Below, in pieces: positions 11,766-24,239 of a stretch of 36,650 bases of DNA. Below the pieces are notes generated by a model. It saw only the letters and a list, made by a program, of their open reading frames with translations. It was not told where the DNA came from and searched no databases. Each line of letters opens with the position of its first letter. The first letter of the stretch is position 1. Source of the stretch: Pseudomonas sp. ACM7 (GTDB lineage: Bacteria; Pseudomonadota; Gammaproteobacteria; Pseudomonadales; Pseudomonadaceae); the NCBI RefSeq assembly GCF_004136015.1, contig NZ_CP024866.1:3804280-3840929 (forward strand). Direction: 5' to 3'. The translations under genes were made by a program, and so were the position numbers.

Positions 11766-12549
11766 AGCGCCGATTGGCGTGTTCGACTCCGGTGTCGGTG
11801 GGCTTTCGGTGCTGGCCGAGATCCAGCGTTTGCTGCCCAACGAATCACTGTTGTATGTCGCCGATTGCGGGAATATTCCCTACGGCGAGAAAACCCCGGA
11901 ATTCATCCGTCATCGCTGCAGCGTGATGGCCGGTTTTTTTCAGCAGCAGGGCGCCAAGGCCTTGGTGCTGGCCTGCAATACGGCGACTGTCGCTGGCGTT
12001 GCCGACTTGCGGCGCGATTATCCCGAGTGGCCCATCGTCGGCATGGAGCCGGCGGTCAAACCGGCCGCTGCCGCCACCCGCAGCGGTGTGGTCGGTGTGC
12101 TCGCCACCACCGGCACGTTGCAGAGTGCCAAGTTCGCCGCGTTGCTCGACCGATTCGCCACCGATGTGCGAGTCATCACTCAGCCGTGCCCCGGCCTGGT
12201 GGAGCTGATCGAAAACGGCGATCTGCACAGCCCAGCCCTGCGCCAGTTGCTGGCCAGGTATGTCGAACCGCTGCTCGGCGCCGGGTGCGACACGATAATT
12301 CTCGGCTGCACGCATTACCCCTTCCTAAAGCCGTTGCTAAAGCAGATGATCCCCGATGACATCAGCCTGATTGACACCGGCGCCGCTGTAGCGCGGCAAC
12401 TTCAGCGTCTGTTGGCTGAGCGTGATTTGTTCGCCCAAGGGCCTGCACGTGCTGCGCAGTTCTGGACGAGTGCCGATCCGCAGCATTTCAGAAATATCTT
12501 GCCGATACTGTGGAATACCGCTGGCGTTGTGCAAAGCTTCAAGGAGTAA
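11758..12549 (+). CDS. murI: Glutamate racemase
   Basis: 263 residues. MurI makes D-glutamate for peptidoglycan in the cytoplasm. N-terminal [16 protein letters not shown], the first catalytic Cys in [11 protein letters not shown] and the second in [12 protein letters not shown] are all present. The start at 11758 lies 8 bases inside moeB; a longer frame from 11686 would overlap moeB much more and adds no family sequence. It is the last gene of the hemA operon before an 83-base gap. Confidence 0.97.
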
Positions 12550-12632
12550 ACAAATCTTGGGGCAAGTGAGTCATTGGGGTGCGTCAAGCAACAAAAAAAC
12601 CACACGAAATCGTTCGGAAAAGGATGTTTCTA

Positions 12633-13151
12633 ATGAAGCGACTATTCTGCTTGGCCGCGATTGCGGCCGCACTGATGGGGCACAGTTTTACCGCACAGGC
12701 GGCAGGCGTGGAGTTCGCGGTCGGCGAGACCAGCGACTCGACCCTGACCTATAGACTGGGCATGCAATTCGATTGGGACAAGAGCTGGTTGCAGAGTGAT
12801 GTCGGTCGCTTGACCGGTTACTGGAGCGGTGCCTACACCTATTGGGAAGGCGACAAGACCTCCAGCAACCACAGCCTGTCGTTCTCGCCAGTGTTTGTTT
12901 ACGAGTTTGCCGGTCAGAACGTCAAGCCGTACCTGGAGGCCGGGATTGGCGTGGCGTTGTTCTCTCATAGCGAACTTGAAAGCAACAACCTCGGTGGTGC
13001 TTTTCAGTTCGAAGACCGATTCGGCTTTGGTGTGCGCTTTGCGGGCGGACATGAAGTCGGGATTCGTGCGACGCACTACTCCAATGCCGGTCTTAACAGT
13101 TACAACGACGGCGTAGAAAGCTACTCGCTGCACTACACGATGCCGTTGTAA
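12633..13151 (+). CDS. pagL: PagL-type lipid A 3-O-deacylase
   Basis: 172 residues. PagL removes the 3-position acyl chain from lipid A in the outer membrane. A signal peptide, MKRLFCLAAIAAALMGHSFTAQA, here abbreviated by its positions 1-23, is followed by an 8-strand beta-barrel pattern ending in the aromatic/Leu terminus YTMPL. The catalytic triad is readable: His148, Ser150 (THYSNAG) and Glu162, with the same spacing (2 and 12) as His126/Ser128/Glu140 of mature P. aeruginosa PagL. AAGGA at 12619-12623 supports the ATG at 12633 over the one at 12624. It has its own 5' gap after murI. Confidence 0.9.
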   Translation: MKRLFCLAAIAAALMGHSFTAQAAGVEFAVGETSDSTLTYRLGMQFDWDKSWLQSDVGRLTGYWSGAYTYWEGDKTSSNHSLSFSPVFVYEFAGQNVKPYLEAGIGVALFSHSELESNNLGGAFQFEDRFGFGVRFAGGHEVGIRATHYSNAGLNSYNDGVESYSLHYTMPL

Positions 13152-13165
13152 GCCTCGGTGCTCTA

Positions 13166-13259
13166 AATGTGGGAGCGAGCCTGCTCGCGAAAGCGGTGTA
13201 CCAAGCAACATCAATGTTGAATGTTAAACCTCTTTCGCGAGCAGGCTCGCTCCCACATT
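13166..13259. repeat. REP pair (REPIN-like), perfect 28-bp arms
   Basis: Arms 13166-13193 and 13232-13259 are exact reverse complements, with core GGGAGCGAGCCTGCTCGCGA and a 38-base loop. This is the well-known Pseudomonas REP family. It lies between the convergent pagL and Cys-cluster genes and may also end their transcription. Confidence 0.95.
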
Positions 13260-13280
13260 GGATTTTCGGTGACTTCGACT

Positions 13281-13586
13281 TCACCGATACGCCGTGGTAA
13301 TCCCTTGGCGCTCATCGATGCATTCTGGTGCGCCCATCTCGAACTCCCGGCAGATCAGCGGGCGTTTTTCGTAGATGGTGCACATCATCGTGTTGCGATC
13401 CAGCGCGGCGCACCAGCCGTCATCCAGGCGCAGCATGACTTCCCCACCCCAGTCATCAGTATCGATAAAACGTTCGGGCACGCCTGTGTCGGTGATCAGC
13501 ATGACTTCGAGCTGACAGCAGCAAGCTGCGCAGGTCGAGCAAGTGACCACCGGTTCGACGATTTGCGTGTGGGGAATGGTTTTCAT
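13281..13586 (-). CDS. YkgJ-type cysteine-cluster protein
   Basis: 101 residues. It has a CSTCAACCC cluster near the N-terminus and further Cys in DDGWCAAL, MMCTIY, LICREF and APEC. This is the CxxCxxCC pattern of the YkgJ/UPF0153 family, thought to bind zinc or an Fe-S cluster; function unknown. The start at 13586 (MKTIPHTQIVEP) is the only sensible one; the frame extends far upstream over DUF2878 but with no family sequence. It is convergent with pagL, and on the same strand 53 bases after the DUF2878 gene. Confidence 0.85.
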   Translation of the reverse strand: MKTIPHTQIVEPVVTCSTCAACCCQLEVMLITDTGVPERFIDTDDWGGEVMLRLDDGWCAALDRNTMMCTIYEKRPLICREFEMGAPECIDERQGITTAYR

Positions 13587-13639
13587 GGCTCGCAGTGTAA
13601 GGCAGTGGGCCGGGGCTGTGTGAAAGGCCTGACGGACGC

Positions 13640-14143
13640 TCAGCTGTGGGTGTCGGACGCTAGCCGCTGAGACATGAAATGCAGCGTGGGAAACAGCAGC
13701 GCCCACAGTAATCCGATGCCGATCAGTGTCGGCGATTGCCCGAAGGGAAATTGCACCCCGGCCAATTGTCCTCCCGCGTAATACGACAGCGGCCCACCGA
13801 CGGCGCCCAGTAGGCTGCCGAGCCACCAGGGATTGGCGGTCCATTGCAGGCAATGGCGCAAAGTGGTTGCCAGCAACGCCCACAACAGCATCAGCCACGG
13901 CGGAATCAGCGGCGCGACATCGTTGAAGTCGAACACCCCAAGCCAGCGCAACGAACTGTCGACCGTCGTTCCCAGCAGCACCACGCTGAGGATCAGTCGG
14001 CCTTCATCGGCCCCGCGACTTATCCACAACAGATGAATCACCAGCACCGCCAACGCCACCAGCAACCACAGACCACTGCCTCCGATCACGCAGGCAAACC
14101 AGCCGATCTGAAATAGCGCGGCATTTGCCAATCGTTCATGCAT
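13640..14143 (-). CDS. DUF2878 family membrane protein
   Basis: 167 residues, mostly hydrophobic, with about five to six membrane segments (for example WFACVIGGSGLWLLVALAVL and LIPPWLMLLWALLATTL). It resembles DUF2878 proteins, which have no known function. The start at 14143 overlaps the end of the CFA-synthase-like gene by 8 bases, so it is translated as the last member of the photoprotection operon. Its fixed place beside DUF1365 and CFA-type genes suggests a role with membrane lipids, but that is inference from position. Confidence 0.8.
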   Translation of the reverse strand: MHERLANAALFQIGWFACVIGGSGLWLLVALAVLVIHLLWISRGADEGRLILSVVLLGTTVDSSLRWLGVFDFNDVAPLIPPWLMLLWALLATTLRHCLQWTANPWWLGSLLGAVGGPLSYYAGGQLAGVQFPFGQSPTLIGIGLLWALLFPTLHFMSQRLASDTHS

Positions 14144-15407
14144 CGAATCGGCCGAGCAGCGGCGCCGGCATTGCGGCGGGTTTGGCCAGTAGCAATTGCG
14201 CCGTGCCGATGGTGCGTTCCAGGAAACCACCTTCGCAGTAGCACAGATAAAATTCCCACAGCCGCAGGAAATAGTCGTCGTAGCCCATTTCGCTCAAGCG
14301 ACCGTGGGCGCGGCGAAAATTCTCATGCCACAGGCGCAAGGTTTGGGCGTAGTGCAGGCCGAAATCCTCCATGTGCAGCAGGTTCATGTCGGTGTCACGG
14401 CTGACAATCTCCAGCATTTTCTGCACGCAGGGCAGGGCGCCGCCGGGGAAGATGTAACGCTGGATGAAATCGACATTGCTCTTGGCTTGTTCGTAGCGCT
14501 GCTCGCGGATGGTGATCGCTTGCAACAGCATCAAACCGTTGCTCTTGAGCAGATGCGCGCATTGCTTGAAGTAGGTCGGCAGGAAGCGATGACCAACCGC
14601 CTCGATCATCTCGATCGACACCAGTTTGTCGTACTGCCCGCTCAGGTCGCGATAATCGGACAGCAGCAGTGTGACCTGGTCCTGCAAACCCAGGGCTTCG
14701 ATCCGTTGCGCGGTGTAGGCGTACTGCTTTTTCGACAGCGTGGTGGTGGTGACTTTGCAGCCGTAATTCTGGGCGGCGTAAAGCGCCATGCTGCCCCAGC
14801 CAGTGCCGATTTCCAGCAGGTGATCGCTGGGTTGCAGCGCGAGTTTCTGGCAGATACGTTCGAGCTTGTTCAGTTGCGCCTGTTCCAGGGTGTCTTCAGG
14901 GGTGAGGAACTGCGCGGCGGAATACATCATGGTCGGGTCGAGAAACTGCTCGAACAAGTCATTGCCGAGGTCGTAATGTGCAGCGATGTTTTTCTGCGAG
15001 CCCTTGCGCGTGTTGCGATTGAGCCAGTGCAGGCTCTGCACGAACGGGCGGCTCAGTTTTGCCAGTCCACCTTCCAGCGCATCCAGCACGTCAAGGTTGC
15101 TGACGAAGACACGCACCACTGCCGTCAAATCCGGCGAACTCCAGTAGCCGTGGATAAATGCTTCGCCCGCGCCAATCGAGCCGTTACTCGCCACCAGTCC
15201 CCAGACCGCGGCGTCGAGGATATGGATTTCGCCCACGGGATGGCTGCCGGCGGTACCGAAGACGTGCCGTTCGCCGTCTTCGAAGACCACCAGTTGCCCG
15301 TGTTTGAGCTGCGCCATCTGCCGCAACACACCACGGCGCAGCAACGATCCGGTCAGGCTGTTGGTACTTAACAGGCTGGTTTTGGCCGAGACACTAGAGG
15401 ATTTCAT
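14136..15407 (-). CDS. Cyclopropane-fatty-acyl-phospholipid synthase family methyltransferase
   Basis: 423 residues. Enzymes of this family transfer a carbon from SAM to the double bond of phospholipid acyl chains at the inner membrane. The SAM loop LLEIGTGWGSM is at about 197-207, IAAHYDLGNDLFEQFLDPTM is at about 141-160, and the family's active-site Cys is at 391 in CYCEGGF. The start at 15407 has AAGGA upstream (15416-15420) and overlaps the DUF1365 gene by 14 bases. Its place beside FAD-oxidoreductase and DUF1365 genes fits UfaM-like methylation in furan fatty acid synthesis rather than the main stationary-phase Cfa. That choice is inference. Confidence 0.9.
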   Translation of the reverse strand: MKSSSVSAKTSLLSTNSLTGSLLRRGVLRQMAQLKHGQLVVFEDGERHVFGTAGSHPVGEIHILDAAVWGLVASNGSIGAGEAFIHGYWSSPDLTAVVRVFVSNLDVLDALEGGLAKLSRPFVQSLHWLNRNTRKGSQKNIAAHYDLGNDLFEQFLDPTMMYSAAQFLTPEDTLEQAQLNKLERICQKLALQPSDHLLEIGTGWGSMALYAAQNYGCKVTTTTLSKKQYAYTAQRIEALGLQDQVTLLLSDYRDLSGQYDKLVSIEMIEAVGHRFLPTYFKQCAHLLKSNGLMLLQAITIREQRYEQAKSNVDFIQRYIFPGGALPCVQKMLEIVSRDTDMNLLHMEDFGLHYAQTLRLWHENFRRAHGRLSEMGYDDYFLRLWEFYLCYCEGGFLERTIGTAQLLLAKPAAMPAPLLGRFDA

Positions 15408-16209
15408 GGCGGCGATCCTTGGGGGGAACAATGGTGGTCTGAAATCTGCCATCGGCAGCAGGATGAGCAAATATCGGTGTGCGTTTCAGTAACAAGCGCA
15501 CGGCCTGCCAATAAATCGCCAGACAGGTTTTCGCGGTCATCCACGGAAAGCGCCGCAAGTAACGGTGCAGGCTGCCGCGGGTGAGGGCTTCGCGGTGCAG
15601 GTTGAGCGTGGCGTCGAACAGTTTCAGTTCGCCTTGCCAGTCCGCCATGTGCACGCCGAGTTTTTGCGCGGCGGGGCTGAAGCTCATGCGGTATTCAATA
15701 TCGCGCGGTAGAAACGGCGACACATGAAACGCCTTGGCCACGGCGAAATGCTGGTGGAAGTCCTGCACGTTCGTCGGTGCCTTGGCCGGCAACACGTAGT
15801 GGTAACGCTCGCGCCACGGCGTATTGGTGACTTCGCAGAGAATCGCCGCCAGTTGGCCGTCGGCCTCATGGCAGTAGAAAAAACTCACCGGGTTGAACGA
15901 CAGGCCCCAACTGCGGGCCTGGGTCAGGAGGCAGATCGAGCCGTGTGGCACATGGCCGATTACCTCGGCGACTTGCTGGCGTACCGCGTCGATCAAACGC
16001 ATGCCACTGCCAGTGAAGGCTTTCAAGTAATCGGTTTCGCGAAACGAAAACGGCGCGAAACGGCTGGTGCCCGACAGCGGCGACAAGCCAAGCACCGCGT
16101 CCTGTTCATCGAGGTCCAGGTACAGCAGACCGATCCGGTAACGGAATTCATGGCGCCGCGGGGCAAACCGCCGATGGGCGATCCAGCCGCTATAAAGGGC
16201 GCTGTTCAC
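15394..16209 (-). CDS. DUF1365 family protein
   Basis: 271 residues, with GTG start at 16209 (overlap TGA/GTG with the upstream FAD gene). N-terminal NSALYSGWIAHRRFAPRRHE and the SWGLSFNPVSFFYCHEADG and EVTNTPWRERYHYVLP segments are diagnostic of DUF1365. The family is found beside CFA-type methyltransferases and FAD amine-oxidase-like proteins in many bacteria. Its biochemical role is not established as far as I know. No signal peptide is seen. Four-base overlap upstream and 14-base overlap downstream put it inside the operon. Confidence 0.9.
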   Translation of the reverse strand: MNSALYSGWIAHRRFAPRRHEFRYRIGLLYLDLDEQDAVLGLSPLSGTSRFAPFSFRETDYLKAFTGSGMRLIDAVRQQVAEVIGHVPHGSICLLTQARSWGLSFNPVSFFYCHEADGQLAAILCEVTNTPWRERYHYVLPAKAPTNVQDFHQHFAVAKAFHVSPFLPRDIEYRMSFSPAAQKLGVHMADWQGELKLFDATLNLHREALTRGSLHRYLRRFPWMTAKTCLAIYWQAVRLLLKRTPIFAHPAADGRFQTTIVPPKDRRHEIL

Positions 16210-17453
16210 AACACTTCTCCCAGCGAGCGAGCAACCCGCAGCGCACTGACCACACCGTCTTCATGGAAACCACTGGCCCAATAAGCGCCGCAAAACCAGG
16301 TGTGCTGCGCGCCGTCCAATTCATCCCAACGCGCTTGCGCGGCGACGGCAGCCAGGCTGTATTGCGGATGGGCGTAGGTGAATTTGGCCAGCACTTTGTT
16401 CGGGGTGATGCCGGCGCTCTGATTGAGGCTGATGCAAAACGTGGTGTCGCTCTGGATGCCTTGCAGAATGTTCATGTCGTAAGTGACGGCGGCCAGCGTG
16501 TGACCGGGACCACCGAGGCGATAATTCCAGCTTGCCCAGGCAAGTTTTCGCACCGGCAGCAAGCGCGTGTCGGTGTGCAACACCACTTCGTTGTCGGCGT
16601 AGGGCAGGGCACCGAGGATCGACTGTTCGGCGCTGCTCGGTTTGGCCAGCAGTTTGAGGGCCTGATCGCTGTGGCAGGCGAACACCACTTTGTCGAAACG
16701 CTCGCTGCCGGCGGCACTGTGGATAACGACGCCGTCTTCATCGCGTTCAACGCGGGTCACCGGGCAATTGAGGCGGATCTTGCCTTTAAAAGACGCGGTC
16801 AGAGGTGCGACATAAGCGCTTGAGCCACCCTCGATCACACTCCATTGCGGACGATTGCTGACGGACAGCAAGCCGTGATTCTTGAAAAACCGGATGAAGA
16901 ACTGCAACGGGAAACCGAGCATGTCGGCCATGGACATGGACCAGATCGCCGCGCCCATCGGCACGATGTAATGCAGGATAAAGCGCTCGCCGTAGCCGCC
17001 GGCCTTCAGGTATTGATCGAGGGTGGTGTCGGCGGCGATCCGTTGTTCTTCGAGGTCGCGCTGGGCTTCTTTGTTGAAGCGCAGGATGTCCCGCAACATG
17101 CCCCAGAACCCTGGCGACATCAGGTTGCGACGTTGGGCGAACAAGCTGTTGAGGTTGTTGCCGTTGTACTCAAGGCCCGAGTCCGGGTCGGTGACCGAGA
17201 AACTCATCTCGGTGGGTTTGAAGCCCACGCCGAGCTGGCCCAGCAGGCGAATGAAATTCGGGTAGGTCCAGTCGTTGAACACAATAAAACCAGTGTCCAC
17301 TGCATAGCGTTGGCCATCGACAGTCACGTCCACCGTGTGGGTGTGACCGCCGACCCAGTCGCTGGCCTCGAACAGAGTGATCTCGTGCCTGCGATTGAGC
17401 AGGTAGGCGCTGGTCAGCCCCGAGATCCCGCTGCCGATGATGGCGATGTTCAA
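16206..17453 (-). CDS. FAD-dependent oxidoreductase (amine-oxidase-like, UfaD-like)
   Basis: 415 residues, TTG start at 17453 overlapping the SDR stop by 4 bases. The N-terminal Rossmann motif IIGSGISGLTSAYLL is followed by ITLFEASDWVGGHTHTV, the FAD-binding GxGxxG...E...GG pattern. The family is amine-oxidase/phytoene-desaturase-like. In alphaproteobacteria a related FAD protein (UfaD) acts with a CFA-like methyltransferase in furan fatty acid synthesis, and this gene is only separated from such a methyltransferase by DUF1365. The exact reaction here is inferred. Confidence 0.88.
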   Translation of the reverse strand: MNIAIIGSGISGLTSAYLLNRRHEITLFEASDWVGGHTHTVDVTVDGQRYAVDTGFIVFNDWTYPNFIRLLGQLGVGFKPTEMSFSVTDPDSGLEYNGNNLNSLFAQRRNLMSPGFWGMLRDILRFNKEAQRDLEEQRIAADTTLDQYLKAGGYGERFILHYIVPMGAAIWSMSMADMLGFPLQFFIRFFKNHGLLSVSNRPQWSVIEGGSSAYVAPLTASFKGKIRLNCPVTRVERDEDGVVIHSAAGSERFDKVVFACHSDQALKLLAKPSSAEQSILGALPYADNEVVLHTDTRLLPVRKLAWASWNYRLGGPGHTLAAVTYDMNILQGIQSDTTFCISLNQSAGITPNKVLAKFTYAHPQYSLAAVAAQARWDELDGAQHTWFCGAYWASGFHEDGVVSALRVARSLGEVL

Positions 17454-18232
17454 GGGACATCCTTGATCGGCGGACTGCTGCGCACCATGCGCTTGCCGAT
17501 GGCCAGTTTCACGCCGTTGGGCATTTTTGACAGCGGCCAGAGCGCGGCCATGAACAGTCCGGGAAACGCGATCTCCAGTGGGCGTTTTTTGAGTTTGGCG
17601 AAGATGTGCTGCGCAGCTTTATCCACAGGCCAACTGAGCGGCATCGGGAAATCGTTCTTCGCCGTCAACGGTGTTTCGACAAACCCCGGGCTGACCACGG
17701 TGACTTCAATGCCTTCCGGCGCCAGATCAATGCGCAACGATTCGAACAAGTAGCGCAGCCCGGCCTTTGACGCGCCATAAGCTTCGGCGCGGGGTAGCGG
17801 CAAATACGTCACCGAACTGGCGACGCCCACCAAGTGCGGCGCGGTACCCTTGCGCAGCAGCGGTAAGGCCACCTCGATGCAGTACGCGCTGGCGAGCAAA
17901 TTGGTGCGCACCACATGCTCGACAATCGACGAATCGAATTGCTGAACGTCGACGTATTCGCAGGTGCCTGCGTTGAGAATCACCGTGTCCAGGGATCCCC
18001 AGTCTTCGGCAATTTGCGCGCCGATTTCGCGGACTGTCTGGCTGTTGGTCAAGTCACCGGGCACCACCAGCACTTGCCCCGGATAACGCAGGGACAAGAC
18101 CTTCAGCACTGCCGCCGAGCGTGAACTGACGGCGACGTGGGCGCCGGTTTTCAGTATTTCTTCGGCCAGCGAGGCGCCAATGCCGCTGCTGGCGCCGGTT
18201 AACCAGTATCGCCGTGGTGGTGTAAAACTCAT
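17450..18232 (-). CDS. Short-chain dehydrogenase/reductase
   Basis: 260 residues. TGASSGIG at 12-19 is the NAD(P)-binding motif, NAG follows near residue 90, and the catalytic YGASK (Tyr and Lys four apart) comes after the Ser in VASSVTYLP. The C-terminus has a hydrophobic segment, PGLFMAALWPLSKMPNG, which may touch the membrane. Substrate unknown. It overlaps both neighbours by 4 bases, so it is part of the operon and may process a lipid intermediate. Confidence 0.9.
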   Translation of the reverse strand: MSFTPPRRYWLTGASSGIGASLAEEILKTGAHVAVSSRSAAVLKVLSLRYPGQVLVVPGDLTNSQTVREIGAQIAEDWGSLDTVILNAGTCEYVDVQQFDSSIVEHVVRTNLLASAYCIEVALPLLRKGTAPHLVGVASSVTYLPLPRAEAYGASKAGLRYLFESLRIDLAPEGIEVTVVSPGFVETPLTAKNDFPMPLSWPVDKAAQHIFAKLKKRPLEIAFPGLFMAALWPLSKMPNGVKLAIGKRMVRSSPPIKDVP

Positions 18233-18651
18233 CCCATTCTCCTTTTCAGCCAGGCAATCGCCCGACCCAATACGGGTACATGTTCGTAAAGCAGCGCCCC
18301 GGCATCGAAGTAATCCCGATGGCGATAAACCTTATCGCGCCAAAGCAGGTGCGAGCAGCCATCGACCCGAATCAACTGACCGCCCGCCAGACGCGGATGG
18401 CGATAACTCATGACCCAGCGCAAATAGCCCTCGCCTTCGCTGATCTGGTCTAAGCCATGAAAGTCGAAGTGCAGATCGCTGACGTTGGCGTAGAGCTCGG
18501 CGAAGTAGCTGCGCATTTGCACCAGGCCCTGAACTTCGTGCAGAGGATCGGTGAAGTGCACGTCGTGGGTGTAGAGCTGATCTAGGCGTAGCAGGTTGTC
18601 CTTGTCCAAGGCTGCAAACTGTTGGGCAAAACGGCGCAGGAAATCACTCAT
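18229..18651 (-). CDS. SnoaL-like / NTF2-fold protein
   Basis: 140 residues. The layout (N-terminal helices FLRRFAQQFAALDKDNLLRLDQLY, then HDVHFTDPLHEVQG, then beta strands with FDFHGLDQISEGEGYLRW) is that of the SnoaL/nuclear-transport-factor-2 cone fold. These small proteins bind hydrophobic ligands or act as isomerases. No specific function can be assigned. It overlaps phrB by 8 bases and the SDR by 4. Confidence 0.82.
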   Translation of the reverse strand: MSDFLRRFAQQFAALDKDNLLRLDQLYTHDVHFTDPLHEVQGLVQMRSYFAELYANVSDLHFDFHGLDQISEGEGYLRWVMSYRHPRLAGGQLIRVDGCSHLLWRDKVYRHRDYFDAGALLYEHVPVLGRAIAWLKRRMG

Positions 18652-20089
18652 CGTGTCCTCCGGCCTGCTGTCTTGATGGCAGGTTCTTGAACGCGGCCAG
18701 CGCCCGTTGGCGCGAGGTGCTTAGGTTGACGATTGGCGACGGATAATCTGCCACGCCGAACAACCCACCAAGGTTGGCCGGGTTGTGCACGTCCTTTTTG
18801 TTCAGCCCGGCCAGTTCCGGCAGCCAGTGCTTGATGAACACGCCTTCGCTGTCGAATTTTTCCGACTGGCTCAACGGATTGAAAATCCGGAAGTAGGGCG
18901 CCGAGTCGGTGCCAGTAGACGAGCTCCACTGCCAGCCACCGTTGTTCGCCGCGAGGTCGCCGTCGATCAGGTGCCGCATGAAAAAGCGCTCGCCTTCACG
19001 CCAGTCAATCAGCAGGTTTTTGGTCAGGAACATCGCCACGACCATGCGTAGTCGGTTGTGCATCCAACCGGTTTCGAGCAATTGGCGCATGGCCGCGTCG
19101 ATGATCGGCAGGCCGGTGCGGGCTTCTTGCCACGCCAGCAGTTCTTCCGGGGCGTCGCGCCAGGCCAGGGCTTCGGTTTCCGGGCGGAAAGCACGGTGAC
19201 GCGAGACCCGTGGGTAGCCCACCAGAATGTGTTTGTAGAACTCGCGCCACAGCAGTTCGTTGATCCAGGTCACCGCGCCGACCTTGCCGCTTTCGAACTC
19301 CCCTTGATTGCTTTGCAGGGCAGCGTGCAGGCATTGGCGAGGGGAAATCACCCCGGCGGCAAGATAAGCCGAGAGCTGACTGGTACCCGGTTTGGCCGGG
19401 AAGTCTCGCTCGTTTTTGTAATAGTCAATCTGGGCGTCGGCGAAGGTGTCGAGACGGCGCCGGGCTTCGGCTTCACCGGCAGGCCAGAGTGTGCGCAGGC
19501 TGAGGATCGGCGTTTTGAAACCTTCAACGCTTGATGGGATTTTGTCGCTGCCGATAGCAAGTGGCACCTGAACCGCGGGTGCGACGACCAGCCCTGGTAA
19601 CGACGCGCGCAGACGGTCGTAGCAGGCTTTGCGGAACTGGCTGAAGACTTGAAAGTAAGTGCCGGTCTTGGTTAGCACGCTGCCCGGTTTGAACAGCAGT
19701 TGATCGAGGTAGCTATAGAAGTCGATGCCATGGGCCTTGAGCGATTCGCCCACGGCGTCATCACGACGGCTTTCATGAATGCCGTATTCCTCGTTGACGT
19801 GCACCGCGTCGATCTTCAATTGCTGACACAGTTCAAGCAGCACCTTCGGCGCTTCATCCCAGCGTGATGACGTGCGGATCAGCAAAGGAATATTCAGTTC
19901 GCCCAGCGTACGGCTCAACTCGCCAAGATTGCGCAACCAGAAATCCACTTTGCACGGCGCATCGTCATGCTCCAGCCATTGGTCCGGGCTCAGCAGGTAC
20001 ACCGCTACCGTCGGACCGCGAGCAGCGGCCGCCGAAAGGGCGGTGTTGTCATGTAGGCGCAAGTCGCTGCGCAACCAGATCAATTGCAT
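18644..20089 (-). CDS. phrB: Class I CPD photolyase
   Basis: 481 residues from the ATG at 20089 (MQLIWLRSDLRLHDNTALSA), the family N-terminus. It splits cyclobutane pyrimidine dimers with blue light through FADH-. The antenna-domain start HDNTAL is followed by the FAD-domain segments FPAKPGTSQLSAYLAAGVIS, TWINELLWREFYKH, WMHNRLRMVVAMFLTK and DGDLAANNGGWQWSSSTGTD, all intact. An in-frame ATG at 20110 forms TAATG with the merR stop and could be used through coupling, adding seven residues. Co-transcription with the LitR-type regulator fits light induction. Confidence 0.96.
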   Translation of the reverse strand: MQLIWLRSDLRLHDNTALSAAAARGPTVAVYLLSPDQWLEHDDAPCKVDFWLRNLGELSRTLGELNIPLLIRTSSRWDEAPKVLLELCQQLKIDAVHVNEEYGIHESRRDDAVGESLKAHGIDFYSYLDQLLFKPGSVLTKTGTYFQVFSQFRKACYDRLRASLPGLVVAPAVQVPLAIGSDKIPSSVEGFKTPILSLRTLWPAGEAEARRRLDTFADAQIDYYKNERDFPAKPGTSQLSAYLAAGVISPRQCLHAALQSNQGEFESGKVGAVTWINELLWREFYKHILVGYPRVSRHRAFRPETEALAWRDAPEELLAWQEARTGLPIIDAAMRQLLETGWMHNRLRMVVAMFLTKNLLIDWREGERFFMRHLIDGDLAANNGGWQWSSSTGTDSAPYFRIFNPLSQSEKFDSEGVFIKHWLPELAGLNKKDVHNPANLGGLFGVADYPSPIVNLSTSRQRALAAFKNLPSRQQAGGHDE

Positions 20090-20109
20090 GGTGGTGTCCG
20101 TACGTTTCA

Positions 20110-21051
20110 TTAAATTAGTCCACGCTGAACCAGGTCCTGATGGACGATTAACGGGTCTTCGGCCAAGAACAAATCAGCGATCTCAGTAGTTTTTACGGAC
20201 AACTCGGCGTGGTGGATGCATACCGTTGGTCCGGCAATCATTTTTGGGCAACTGACACCATTCAAAAGTTTCGGCAACTGCGAAAGGTTCATGGCTTTGC
20301 TGGAATACAGCAGTACGCCGCGGGCTTGCAGATGATCGACCGCCAGCGCGAGTTCGCCGGCGGGGAGTGGCCAGTCGAACACTTCCACCGGGCAATCGGC
20401 GCTGCTGATCAACCAGGCGGTCAGCCATAGGTGAGGTTCCAGTGGCAGGTCCGAGTGATTGATCAACAACAGTGGCGCGGTGCGTAACTGACGGTTGTTA
20501 TGGTAGATGCGTGCTCCAAATTTGCTGCGTAACCAGGAGTAAAAAAACACCCGCTCCATCTGCGCGCCGAACTGTCCTTGCCAGCGTTGTTCCAGTTCAG
20601 CCAGCAGCGGCATCAGCAGTTGTGCGCACAAGGTCCGTGGTGGATACAGCGCCATGGCCTGATTGACGGTGTCGTCAAGAGTGCGCTCGTTCAGTTGAGT
20701 GACCGCCTGCAGCAGCGTATGGCGCAGCACTTGCCAATCGTTTTCGACGGATTCGGTAAAGGCCTGGGGGGTGTCGAGTAGTTGCTTGACCTGGCTGACG
20801 GCCACGCCGCGGTTGAGCCAGGTGAGGATCGTCAGGATGCGTTGAACGTGTTCGGCAGAAAACAGCCGATGCCCCTTGGGCGTGCGTTGCGGCACGATCA
20901 GGCCATAACGCCGTTCCCAGGCCCGCAGGGTGACGGCGTTGACGCCGGTCTGCCGCGCGACCTCACGGATCGGCAGCCAGCCTTCGTCGAGGGCTTTCTT
21001 GAAGTCGGCGCCGAGGTCTTCGCTGGCGCTGGTGTCGAGTGGGCTTTTCAT
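20110..21051 (-). CDS. MerR-family regulator, LitR/CarH type without a full B12 site
   Basis: 313 residues. The winged helix-turn-helix IREVARQTGVNAVTLRAWER is at about 28-47, followed by RYGLIVPQRTPKGHRLFS. The C-terminal half resembles the B12-binding region of CarH/LitR but is degenerate. The W...EH helix reads W-QGQFGAQM-ER, so both histidines expected there are gone; an E-x-H survives in LEPHLWL but the following Gly is Leu. In P. putida, such class II LitR proteins (known from memory) sense light through a separate LOV protein. It probably represses the promoters at 22044-22117 and 23161-23194. Start at 21051 is 10 bases after the previous stop. Confidence 0.9.
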   Translation of the reverse strand: MKSPLDTSASEDLGADFKKALDEGWLPIREVARQTGVNAVTLRAWERRYGLIVPQRTPKGHRLFSAEHVQRILTILTWLNRGVAVSQVKQLLDTPQAFTESVENDWQVLRHTLLQAVTQLNERTLDDTVNQAMALYPPRTLCAQLLMPLLAELEQRWQGQFGAQMERVFFYSWLRSKFGARIYHNNRQLRTAPLLLINHSDLPLEPHLWLTAWLISSADCPVEVFDWPLPAGELALAVDHLQARGVLLYSSKAMNLSQLPKLLNGVSCPKMIAGPTVCIHHAELSVKTTEIADLFLAEDPLIVHQDLVQRGLI

Positions 21052-21061
21052 TGGATTGTCA

Positions 21062-22021
21062 TTAGATCGCGTTTCGCAGACTGAGATTTTCCGGATGCGG
21101 TTGCAGGTAAACCTGTTGCGCAATGTACGGATCCGGATGTTGGCGAAAGTAGTGTTTGAGCAGCGTCAACGGCACCACTAACGGCACGATGCCGTGGCGG
21201 TATTGCCCGATGACGTGCTGCACTTCCTGTTTGTCTTCAGGGCTGATTGCCTGTTTGAGATAGCCACTGATGTGTTGCAGGACGTTGGTGTGGCTGCGGC
21301 GTGTGGCGCATTTTTTCAAGGCCGTCATCAGCTCGCTGAAATAGCGTGGACCGAGTTCGTTCGGGTCGGTCTGGCCCATGTTGCCCAGCAGGGTGCCCAG
21401 GGTTTTGTATTGCACCGGGTTGTGGGCCATCAGCAGGTATTTGTAGCGCGAGTGAAAGTCCGTGAGGCCACGGCGAGTCAGGCCTTCACGCAACAACTGC
21501 TGCCAGGCGCTGTAGGCGAACACGCGGGTGAGGAAGTTTTCTCGCAGCACCGGGTCGTTGAGCCGGCCGTCTTCTTCCACCGGTAAATCCGGATGCAGCG
21601 CGCAGAACGTCTTGGCGTAGATGCCACGGCCACCTCCGTCCACCGGCGCGCCGTTGGCGTGGTAGACCTTGACCCGATCCAGGCCGCATGACGGGGATTT
21701 CTGCATGAAGATATAGCCGCAGAGGTCGACCAGTTCTGCGGCCATTTTCTGACCGTATTCGGCCAGTGGCCGGGTGACATTGAGTGTTGTGTTAACGGTG
21801 CCGACGGCTTCGGGATGTTGTGGATCACCCACCAGACGGATCGGTTCACGGGGAATGCCGAGGCCAATGGCGACTTCGGGGCAAACCGGGACAAAATCGA
21901 AATAGTCAGTGAGGGTGCGACTGCACAGCCGCGATTCCTTGTGCCCGCCGTTAAAACGCACTTCTGCGCCCATCAGGCAGGCGCTGATGGCGATCTTCGG
22001 TTTCACGGTGATGTGGGGCAT
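21062..22021 (-). CDS. rudS: TudS (DUF523)-DUF1722 fusion, RudS-like tRNA 4-thiouridine desulfidase
   Basis: 319 residues. The N-terminal DUF523/TudS domain carries the three cluster cysteines: C15 (ISACLMG), C47 (VPVCPEV) and C112 (KSPSCGLDRV). The C-terminal DUF1722 domain includes SRYKYLLMAHNPVQYKTLG. Fused TudS-DUF1722 proteins have been described as RudS enzymes that strip sulfur from s4U in tRNA, lowering UVA sensitivity. GAGG stands before the ATG at 22021. As first gene of the light-type operon with photolyase, its placement fits removal of the near-UV-absorbing nucleoside. Domain call is firm; substrate is transferred from the family. Confidence 0.88.
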   Translation of the reverse strand: MPHITVKPKIAISACLMGAEVRFNGGHKESRLCSRTLTDYFDFVPVCPEVAIGLGIPREPIRLVGDPQHPEAVGTVNTTLNVTRPLAEYGQKMAAELVDLCGYIFMQKSPSCGLDRVKVYHANGAPVDGGGRGIYAKTFCALHPDLPVEEDGRLNDPVLRENFLTRVFAYSAWQQLLREGLTRRGLTDFHSRYKYLLMAHNPVQYKTLGTLLGNMGQTDPNELGPRYFSELMTALKKCATRRSHTNVLQHISGYLKQAISPEDKQEVQHVIGQYRHGIVPLVVPLTLLKHYFRQHPDPYIAQQVYLQPHPENLSLRNAI

Positions 22022-22043
22022 CGGAGCACCTCGAATCTAAACC

Positions 22044-22117
22044 TGTACAGACTGTTCGGTCTGTACAACATAACTTCATCATAGATTCAAAGGTGTACAA
22101 GTCAAACTATTTGTATA
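22044..22117 (-). promoter_or_regulatory. Promoter with LitR-type TGTACA operators ahead of the photoprotection operon
   Basis: On the minus strand, TTGACT (22100-22105) and TATGAT (22078-22083) are 16 bases apart, a good sigma70-type promoter. TGTACAGAC (22044-22052) and GTCTGTACA (22059-22067) form a perfect 9-bp palindrome with a 6-base spacer just downstream of the expected start. TGTACAA (22094-22100) and TTGTATA (22111-22117) form a second, imperfect one over the -35. TGTACA-type half-sites are typical of CarH/LitR operators. Confidence 0.75.
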
Positions 22118-22153
22118 GGTTTTACCGTCGGCCTCCTACCGGATTGATGCGGT

Positions 22154-23215
<1,062 letters not shown>

Positions 23216-23336
23216 TTAGCGTTCTCGTTCTGACAGCTTGGCCTATTGTTAATCACAGAGCCTGCCCGATAACAAAGATCCCTGCTTATAAAAATAGACT
23301 AGTGATCAGGGTTAAACGCCACGCGAGGAAGTAGTC

Positions 23337-24239
23337 ATGCACATATTGCTGACCGGCGGTACTGGTTTGATAGGACGTCAGCTCTGCGGACTCTGGTTGA
23401 GTCAGGGGCATCGCCTGACGGTCTGGAGTCGCAAGCCTGAAAAAGTTGCGAAAATCTGCGGTGCCCAAGTGCGCGGAGTGGCCCGCCTCGAGGACATCGG
23501 CCAGGAGCCGGTGGATGCGATTATCAATCTGGCAGGCGCACCGATTGCCGATCGGCCTTGGACAACCAGACGCAAAGCGCTGTTGTGGAGTAGCCGCATC
23601 ACCCTGACCGAAACCCTGCTGGCCTGGCTCGAAACCTGTGAACAAAAACCGCAGGTGTTGATTTCGGGGTCTGCGGTCGGTTGGTACGGTGACGGGGGCG
23701 AGCGGGAATTGACCGAGAAATCGCCACCGGTCATCGATGATTTTGCCAGCCAGTTGTGCATCGCCTGGGAAGAAACCGCCCAGCGTGCCGAAGGCTTGGG
23801 CCTTCGCGTGATCTTCATTCGTACCGGGCTGGTGTTGTCGGCCGAGGGCGGCTTTTTGTCGCGGCTGTTGCTACCGTTCAAAGTGGGGCTGGGCGGGCCT
23901 ATCGGCAATGGCCGGCAGTGGATGCCGTGGATCCATATCAACGATCAAATCGCCCTGATTGATTTTCTTCTGCATCAGGAAGACACCAGTGGTCCTTATA
24001 ATGCCTGCGCGCCCAAACCGGTGCGCAACCGCGAGTTTGCCAAGACATTGGGTAGCGTGCTGCACCGCCCGACGTTCATGCCCATGCCGGCCTTGGCGTT
24101 AAAGGTGTGTCTGGGCGAGTTGTCATTGTTATTGCTGGGCGGCCAGAAGGCCGTACCGGCTCGCTTGCTGGACGCGGGTTTCACTTTCCAGTTCACTGAT
24201 TTGCGCGCGGCTCTGGACGACCTTTCCAGCCGCCTTTGA
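23337..24239 (+). CDS. TIGR01777-type NAD-dependent epimerase/dehydratase (YfcH-like)
   Basis: 300 residues. [15 protein letters not shown] at the N-terminus binds the dinucleotide. [37 protein letters not shown] and [17 protein letters not shown] are diagnostic of this YfcH/SulA-like extended SDR group. The final part carries a DUF1731-like C-terminal domain ([15 protein letters not shown]). Substrate is not known. GAGGAAG precedes the ATG. It lies 13 bases before hemH on the same strand, so the two are probably co-transcribed. Confidence 0.9.

Follow-up and report, generated by a model that had tools for sequence, protein, structure and literature searches.

What joins genes for DNA repair, tRNA repair and lipid modification in one minus-strand block of Pseudomonas sp. 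ACM7, what switches the block on, and does the same switch reach its neighbours? The block lies at 22021..13640 of a 36,650-nucleotide stretch (contig NZ_CP024866.1, positions 3,804,280 to 3,840,929; hereafter the window), and a reading of the sequence alone had taken it for a light-induced photoprotection operon. It is, with high probability, a nine-gene operon with one promoter and two LitR-type operators, predicted to stay off in darkness and to be turned on by blue light through a LOV protein that removes a class II LitR regulator. The sequence-only observation was confirmed and its light interpretation is mostly right, already published for relatives; the operon itself being known, its value here is confirmatory. 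Our additions are an operator before the neighbouring renalase gene, the separability of a furan-fatty-acid cassette and a decayed second copy of this cassette in the same genome. The further proposal, that the LitR/LOV switch also turns on renalase while the cassette proteins SnoaL and SDR clean up furan chains broken by singlet oxygen, seems to us evenly poised between right and wrong.

A nine-gene operon behind two LitR-type operators

The block consists of nine intact, full open frames, listed here in the order of transcription.

21062..22021, minus strand: RudS (TudS-DUF1722), predicted tRNA 4-thiouridine desulfidase (Pfam 2-thiour_desulf, PF04463, and DUF1722, PF08349)
20110..21051, minus strand: class II LitR, a MerR helix-turn-helix plus B12-binding_2 helix bundle only, without PF02310 (Pfam)
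18644..20110, minus strand: cyclobutane pyrimidine dimer photolyase PhrB (DNA_photolyase and FAD_binding_7; 523 bits against the 506-bit cut-off of PRK10674)
18229..18651, minus strand: SnoaL-like protein of NTF2 fold (SnoaL_2), first gene of the cassette
17450..18232, minus strand: short-chain dehydrogenase/reductase (SDR) oxidoreductase of the cassette (adh_short)
16206..17453, minus strand: UfaD-like flavin adenine dinucleotide (FAD) oxidoreductase, predicted to desaturate the methylated acyl chain (Amino_oxidase; role from PMC7380195)
15394..16209, minus strand: UfaO-like DUF1365 protein, predicted O2-dependent furan former (Pfam; role from PMC7380195)
14136..15407, minus strand: UfaM-like CMAS methyltransferase (named after the matching operon in PMC9758184)
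13640..14143, minus strand: DUF2878 protein, predicted to lie in the membrane and to have six long helices (Pfam)

All nine minus-strand genes are thus where the sequence-only reading had placed them, and the tight spacing that it described was borne out by measurement, with a largest gap of 10 bases and overlaps of up to 14 bases. Relative to the preceding gene, the distance is +10 bases for LitR, -1 for PhrB, -8 for SnoaL, -4 for SDR, UfaD and UfaO alike, -14 for UfaM and -8 for DUF2878.

The same reading had pointed to one good promoter, and scanning both strands of 12500-23500 returned a single site, at 22105..22078 on the minus strand, but the scan by itself proves little because shuffled sequence yields a mean of 2.8 sites. 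Two palindromic sites, found by searching with the LitR consensus T(G/A)TACA-N12-TGTA(C/T)A taken from PMC9758184, accompany the promoter.

22078..22105, minus strand: sigma-70-type promoter TTGACT-N16-TATGAT, from the scan of 12500-23500
22094..22117, minus strand: LitR Site 1, TATACA-N12-TGTACA, overlapping the -35 hexamer
22044..22067, minus strand: LitR Site 2, TGTACA-N12-TGTACA, past the predicted transcript start and ahead of the first ATG

Of the three exact consensus matches in the 6.6 Mb genome, two are these sites at the rudS promoter, while inside the nine genes there is no LitR-type site at up to one mismatch. In order to follow the sites across the genus, in which RudS is found in 77 of 79 genomes, 40 loci picked for spread were fetched out of the 77 RudS-bearing genomes and compared together with the window (41 genus loci in all). 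At up to one mismatch, Site 1 is present in 33 and Site 2 in 37 of the 41, and the half-sites of Site 2 are conserved at 0.98 as against 0.40 for the spacer. A second set, the best 80 of 249 named Pseudomonas loci by UfaO identity, over-represents the window's own clade because of this ranking; it has Site 1 in 79/80 loci (77 exact) and Site 2 in 77/80 (all exact), over a background of 1 site (up to one mismatch) per 1,624,240 positions once the two upstream regions are excluded. A wide LitR regulon drawn from one-mismatch sites alone was rejected: a reversed-pattern control gave 12 matches per strand and the true pattern 15, and because the two are nearly equal only position-conserved sites are claimed here. 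The Site 2 palindrome (22068..22043, minus strand) also scored as a terminator-like hairpin just past the predicted transcript start, and this hairpin might also act in RNA.

Probable light input through a LOV protein

The LitR of the operon matches PF13411 (E 1.3e-17) and PF02607 (E 7.3e-9), while the cobalamin-binding domain PF02310 gave no match at E up to 0.01. By this domain content it is a class II LitR and not a CarH-type B12 photosensor, and the CarH side of the LitR/CarH framing in the sequence-only reading was dropped because PF02310 is missing. A second locus, at C1:1613-1615 kb of the same genome, contains a PAS/LOV-type gene, a hypothetical gene and a second LitR (LitR2). The PAS/LOV-type open reading frame (ORF) has 158 amino acids (aa), matches PAS_9 (E 1.2e-21) and displays the motif DCRFLQ; LitR2 is 35% identical to the operon LitR by BLASTP, with the DNA-reading stretch VTLRAWERRYGLI common to both. 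This gene order matches that of P. mendocina, where pmSB-LOV, PME15565 and pmlR2 follow one another (PMC9758184). Since the operon LitR has no PF02310 and a PAS/LOV-type gene lies near LitR2, light likely enters through the LOV protein, which, by analogy with P. mendocina, would release the class II LitR here. One observation speaks against the parallel, namely that in LitR2 the MerR domain was found and PF02607 was not at E <=0.001, while PmlR2 of P. mendocina does carry PF02607 (PMC9758184).

That the operon LitR itself senses light through adenosyl-cobalamin, in the manner of CarH, is very improbable. It does possess PF02607 (B12-binding_2), and PMC11417400 calls class II LitR adenosyl-B12-dependent; against this stand the missing PF02310 and PMC9758184, where class II, retaining only the helix bundle, is suggested to be unable to bind B12 and LOV is shown as the partner. 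The two sources disagree on the B12 dependence of class II LitR.

A published light-induced counterpart and other conceivable routes of control

In P. mendocina NBRC 14162, the nine genes PME6650-PME6610 were described as probably forming one polycistron induced by blue light (Maruyama 2022, PMC9758184); this pmlR1 operon has the same nine gene types in the same order, its unnamed ORFs being matched by position only. Quantitative reverse-transcription PCR at 6, 14 and 21 h gave 10.1 to 5.7 fold for pmlR1, 26.7 to 33.2 fold for phrB and 25.0 to 33.2 fold for ufaM (PMC9758184). Its promoter P6650 is TTGACT-N16-TATGAT, sigma-70-like, with a mapped start and two N12-spaced TGTACA-type sites; its footprint was taken with PmlR2, a protein whose binding to DNA is inhibited by illuminated LOV (PMC9758184). 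The hexamers and N16 spacing are identical to those of the promoter here, in both species Site 1 overlaps the -35 and Site 2 precedes the ATG, and both have the LOV/LitR2 locus unlinked; the left half of Site 1 is TATACA here and TGTACA in P. mendocina. The proposal of a light-induced operon is supported by this counterpart, though as an idea it is not new, being already in print. Likewise, the view that photolyase (DNA), RudS (tRNA) and furan genes (membrane) are joined in one light-responsive operon finds its match in the same set being light-induced in P. mendocina.

RudS desulfurates tRNA 4-thiouridine, as described for P. putida PP_0741, and sits in LitR operons (PMC11417400); the cluster cysteines Cys15, Cys47 and Cys112 are all present here, at the positions by which those of RudS_PU are numbered (PMC11417400). 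In the mechanism that we propose, light would free RNA polymerase at the rudS promoter, upon which PhrB would repair pyrimidine dimers, RudS would strip the near-UV-sensitive 4-thiouridine from tRNA, and UfaM, UfaD and UfaO would convert 18:1 phospholipid chains to singlet-oxygen-quenching furan fatty acids. SnoaL, SDR and DUF2878 would serve this furan lipid branch.

The PplR regulon of P. putida KT2440 is light-induced, as Sumi reportedly described in 2020. An alternative to light as the governing signal is that the operon responds to stress in general, with light as one cue of several and photoprotection not as its main role; a V. cholerae photolyase, for instance, is reportedly induced by nitrosative stress (title of PMC11976125). 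In KT2440, phr (PP_0739), pplR1 (PP_0740) and rudS (PP_0741) adjoin as they do in the operon here (PMC11014904, PMC11417400), and PP_0738-PP_0742 rose together in co-culture under the same illumination (PMC11014904). The authors assumed a lower light dose per cell in the co-culture, so that this rise counts against light being the only cue. On the other side, the content of photolyase, RudS and furan-lipid genes points to light, as does LOV-LitR control in P. mendocina (PMC9758184), and we consider the general stress operon improbable.

Across species, the furan genes count among the core members of the ChrR regulon (PMC6852236), which raises the question whether the operon answers singlet oxygen through the extracytoplasmic function sigma factor sigma-E and ChrR, as in Rhodobacter and maybe for V. 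cholerae VC1122, with LitR as a minor modulator. VC1122 is blue-light-induced, and 159 of 222 V. cholerae blue-light genes need ChrR, perhaps VC1122 among them (PMC5241685). The promoter here, however, is sigma-70-like with LitR sites on top of it, and so is that of the P. mendocina counterpart, whose start is mapped (PMC9758184). Moreover, the sigma-E pattern TGATC-N18-CGTAT, taken from PMC5241685, is absent at up to one mismatch upstream of both rudS and renalase. In the window as a whole it has four one-mismatch matches where 1.1 are expected, a count reached in 2 of 100 shuffles. The ChrR cupin PF12973 matches only two ORFs of the genome (139 and 146 aa), one of them above the cut-off, with no search made for the sigma factor. 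ChrR is a two-domain protein, longer than either ORF. Because there is neither an upstream sigma-E pattern nor a long ChrR cupin ORF, these results lower, without excluding, the oxidative route, to which we give very little credence; control by LitR and light is the reading that we retain.

A LitR-type operator before the renalase gene

Immediately upstream of the operon, in the same direction, lies a gene for a renalase, itself preceded by a LitR-type site.

22154..23140, minus strand: FAD-dependent renalase, 328 aa, predicted 2- and 6-dihydro-NAD(P) oxidase (PDB 4zcc)
23188..23211, minus strand: LitR-type operator TATACC-N12-TGTACA, one mismatch, beginning 71 bases upstream of the start codon of renalase

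The product is alike over its full length to the crystallised renalases PDB 4zcc, 4zcd and 5krq, and to 4zcc end to end with 266/328 residues identical (81%, E 1.3e-183). We take 4zcc to be the P. phaseolicola renalase, and this enzyme, going by the title of one study, reportedly oxidises 2- and 6-dihydro-NAD(P). Since the same type of control site stands before the gene, renalase is likely under the same light switch as the operon, as judged from sequence; and because this upstream gene bears a LitR-type operator, the boundary of 22021..13640 drawn by the sequence-only reading is too narrow, although its nine genes stand. Renalase would form a separate LitR-repressed unit and turn 2- and 6-dihydro-NAD(P) back into NAD(P)+.

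At up to one mismatch, the site precedes renalase in 35 of the 38 genus loci that have the gene and is exact in 15 of 37 such loci that were fetched; it is also found in all 79 named loci with the gene, each time with one mismatch. Its distance to the start codon is -71 in 71/79 named loci and -69 to -78 in 35/41 genus loci, and its half-sites are conserved at 0.91 and 0.98 as against 0.69 for the spacer.

Several observations weigh against light control of renalase. None of the 79 sites in the window's clade is exact (TATACC), so that the operator could be weak there; two genus loci (L148, L156) carry the gene with no site at up to one mismatch within 250 scanned bases, and in a third (L133) the site lies only at -175. 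The contrast between half-sites and spacer is smaller here than at Site 2, so that the conservation is in part a matter of shared ancestry. An epimerase gene (PF01370 and DUF1731; 23337-24239, plus strand) lies on the far side of the operator, divergent from renalase, and the two genes could have the site in common. It is conceivable, if on balance unlikely, that the operator serves this epimerase or is an inherited relic and that renalase is not light-controlled, as the position between two divergent genes and the one mismatch in the window's clade would allow. The near-fixed distance, measured to the renalase start only, the better conservation of the half-sites and the exact site in 15/37 genus loci argue the other way. 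So does the rise of PP_0742 together with PP_0738-0741 (PMC11014904): as PP_0741 is rudS, PP_0742 should be renalase by gene order.

A literature search found no paper tying renalase to blue light, with the key light-gene lists of P. mendocina and P. putida beyond its reach, and the novelty of a renalase-light connection is therefore conditional; in the main text of PMC9758184, as far as available, a word search found renalase unmentioned. If the light switch does reach renalase, this enzyme is a fourth, cofactor-repair arm beside those for DNA, tRNA and membrane; light then threatens the redox cofactors of Pseudomonas too, and bacterial renalase gains a physiological signal. The conserved LitR site would give this enzyme, known from enzymology, a role in the cell, namely to mend mis-reduced NAD(P)H in the light.

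A separable furan-fatty-acid cassette

UfaM, UfaD and UfaO make furan fatty acids, UfaO holding a DUF1365 domain, and the furan fatty acid disappears when cells are exposed to singlet oxygen (PMC7380195). The sequence-only reading had counted SnoaL-like, DUF1365 and DUF2878 as three genes with no known role; that all three are roleless is ruled out, since DUF1365 is UfaO (PMC7380195). The UfaM-like protein falls below the cut-offs of true cyclopropane synthases (284, 278 and 244 bits against 400, 600 and 650). Among solved structures, the amine oxidase LkcE comes closest to the UfaD-like protein. For DUF2878, a fold search against the PDB gave no match at E <=0.001.

Two other arrangements of these genes are on record. 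Rhodobacter sphaeroides has the same gene types, namely an S-adenosylmethionine-dependent methylase, UfaD and a DUF1365 protein (UfaO), but the ufa genes lie at two loci (RSP2144 and RSP1087-1091) under sigma-E/ChrR control (PMC7380195), whereas here they form one LitR operon with SnoaL, SDR and DUF2878; the likeness is by family. Aeromonas salmonicida has a six-gene SnoaL-SDR-FAD-DUF1365-cfa-DUF2878 cassette, predicted to be an operon and without photolyase, which was noticed through its lowering by riboflavin and for which no experimental function is given (PMC10012899).

In order to see what accompanies DUF1365 in the class, we surveyed 60 DUF1365 loci drawn from 81 matching genomes, for the most part a single locus for each genus, with per-family thresholds set ad hoc and with some loci reaching contig ends (<18.7 kb). 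Within about 9 kb, UfaD-like and UfaM-like genes were found at 58 loci each, SDR at 30, SnoaL at 26 and DUF2878 at 22. PhrB, LitR, RudS and LOV were all below threshold at 37/60 loci, and SnoaL was present at 13 of those. SnoaL-SDR-UfaD-UfaO-UfaM-DUF2878 is thus a separable cassette.

Within the genus, SnoaL occurs in 60 of the 79 genomes, and the cassette lies inside the photolyase operon in 49 and elsewhere in 12 (the raw split was 48/13; genome G289 was moved to the embedded group, its locus L172 being a photolyase locus with no RudS match). All 12 stand-alone cassettes carry one or more exact LitR-type sites close to SnoaL. The stand-alone genomes are presumably mostly of the putida group; with respect to the P. 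putida PplR regulon, the furan cassette is elsewhere in these genomes (12/79) and inside the photolyase operon here.

The Pseudomonas sp. ACM7 genome is the only one with both an embedded and a stand-alone cassette, its second copy being counted among the 12. This copy (C1:5566-5570 kb, within locus L030 at C1:5564.9-5570 kb) retains an exact LitR operator and an intact SnoaL and is otherwise decayed: SDR and UfaD are interrupted, UfaO is shortened and run into DUF2878, and UfaM gave no match. In a small tree its SnoaL clusters with that of a different genus within the family, a hint only, because the tree is of one short gene and its sole printed support is 0.87 on a mixed-locus node. At the same locus, a convergent pair of chalcone-isomerase-like (PF16036) and DUF3833 genes stands behind a one-mismatch LitR site. 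The PF16036 gene has a LitR site at 7/12 stand-alone cassette loci (5 exact), while a general LitR operator before it was rejected, only 5 of 30 genus loci having one within 300 bases.

SnoaL as a candidate enzyme of furan fate

SnoaL travels with DUF1365. Among 276 genomes of the class, the SnoaL subfamily is strong (E <=1e-30) in 32, of which 31 also have DUF1365, 28 of these within 10 kb; with weaker matches included, 32/35 genomes have DUF1365. The co-occurrence has a Fisher value of 6e-18 over the 276 genomes, which is too kind because the genomes are related. The SnoaL profile was moreover built from loci beside DUF1365 or RudS, which favours the DUF1365 pairing, and many genomes were scored on their best 14 candidates only.

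The structural model (predicted local distance difference test, pLDDT, 91.5) has the fold of NTF2 and ketosteroid isomerase (KSI), nearest to limonene-epoxide hydrolases and other KSI-like proteins; Foldseek returned 5aii (E 2.2e-7, TMq 0.63) and the profile search 5aif (E 5.3e-8). Seven residues are invariant in 37 sequences: F32, D34, W78, G97, H110, D112 and D115. In the profile alignment, D34 pairs with the EDP-motif Asp of the steroid isomerase and D112 with the RDY Asp of the epoxide hydrolase, while the Arg and Asp of the hydrolase ERTD on the middle strand are not kept, facing W78 and a non-acidic residue. The EDP-motif Asp is the catalytic base of steroid isomerases. Because D34 matches this Asp and the hydrolase Arg and Asp are not kept, an acid-base step on an oxidised or conjugated acyl chain is favoured; the most likely role of SnoaL is that of an acid-base enzyme of KSI type which, with SDR, would act on oxidised furan chains.

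This role of SnoaL is the weakest link of our model, and two findings tell against the accessory genes having so close a part in it. Single deletions of RSP1087, RSP1088 and RSP1089 in R. sphaeroides left the fatty acid profile unchanged (PMC7380195), from which it follows that these accessory genes may play no part in synthesis; by analogy, their dispensability there fits an accessory role after synthesis and does not show one. The pairing of DUF2878 is also looser, 34/44 genomes having DUF1365 and 10/44 being without it. The near-exclusive pairing of the SnoaL subfamily with DUF1365 nevertheless offers a concrete target for the fate of furans after singlet oxygen.

Genes at the downstream end

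The operon may extend one gene further at its 3' side, where a small protein is encoded 53 bases after DUF2878.

13281..13586, minus strand: CxxCxxCC small protein (PF03692, YkgJ-like)

In some species that lack the cassette (L131, L132, L154, L156), this possible tenth member comes after PhrB, and six loci (L123, L126, L131, L132, L138, L160) have lost part or all of the cassette that otherwise separates PhrB from the CxxCxxCC gene. Beyond it, a gene for a PagL-family lipid A deacylase (PF09411; 12579-13151, plus strand) converges on the 3' end of the operon.

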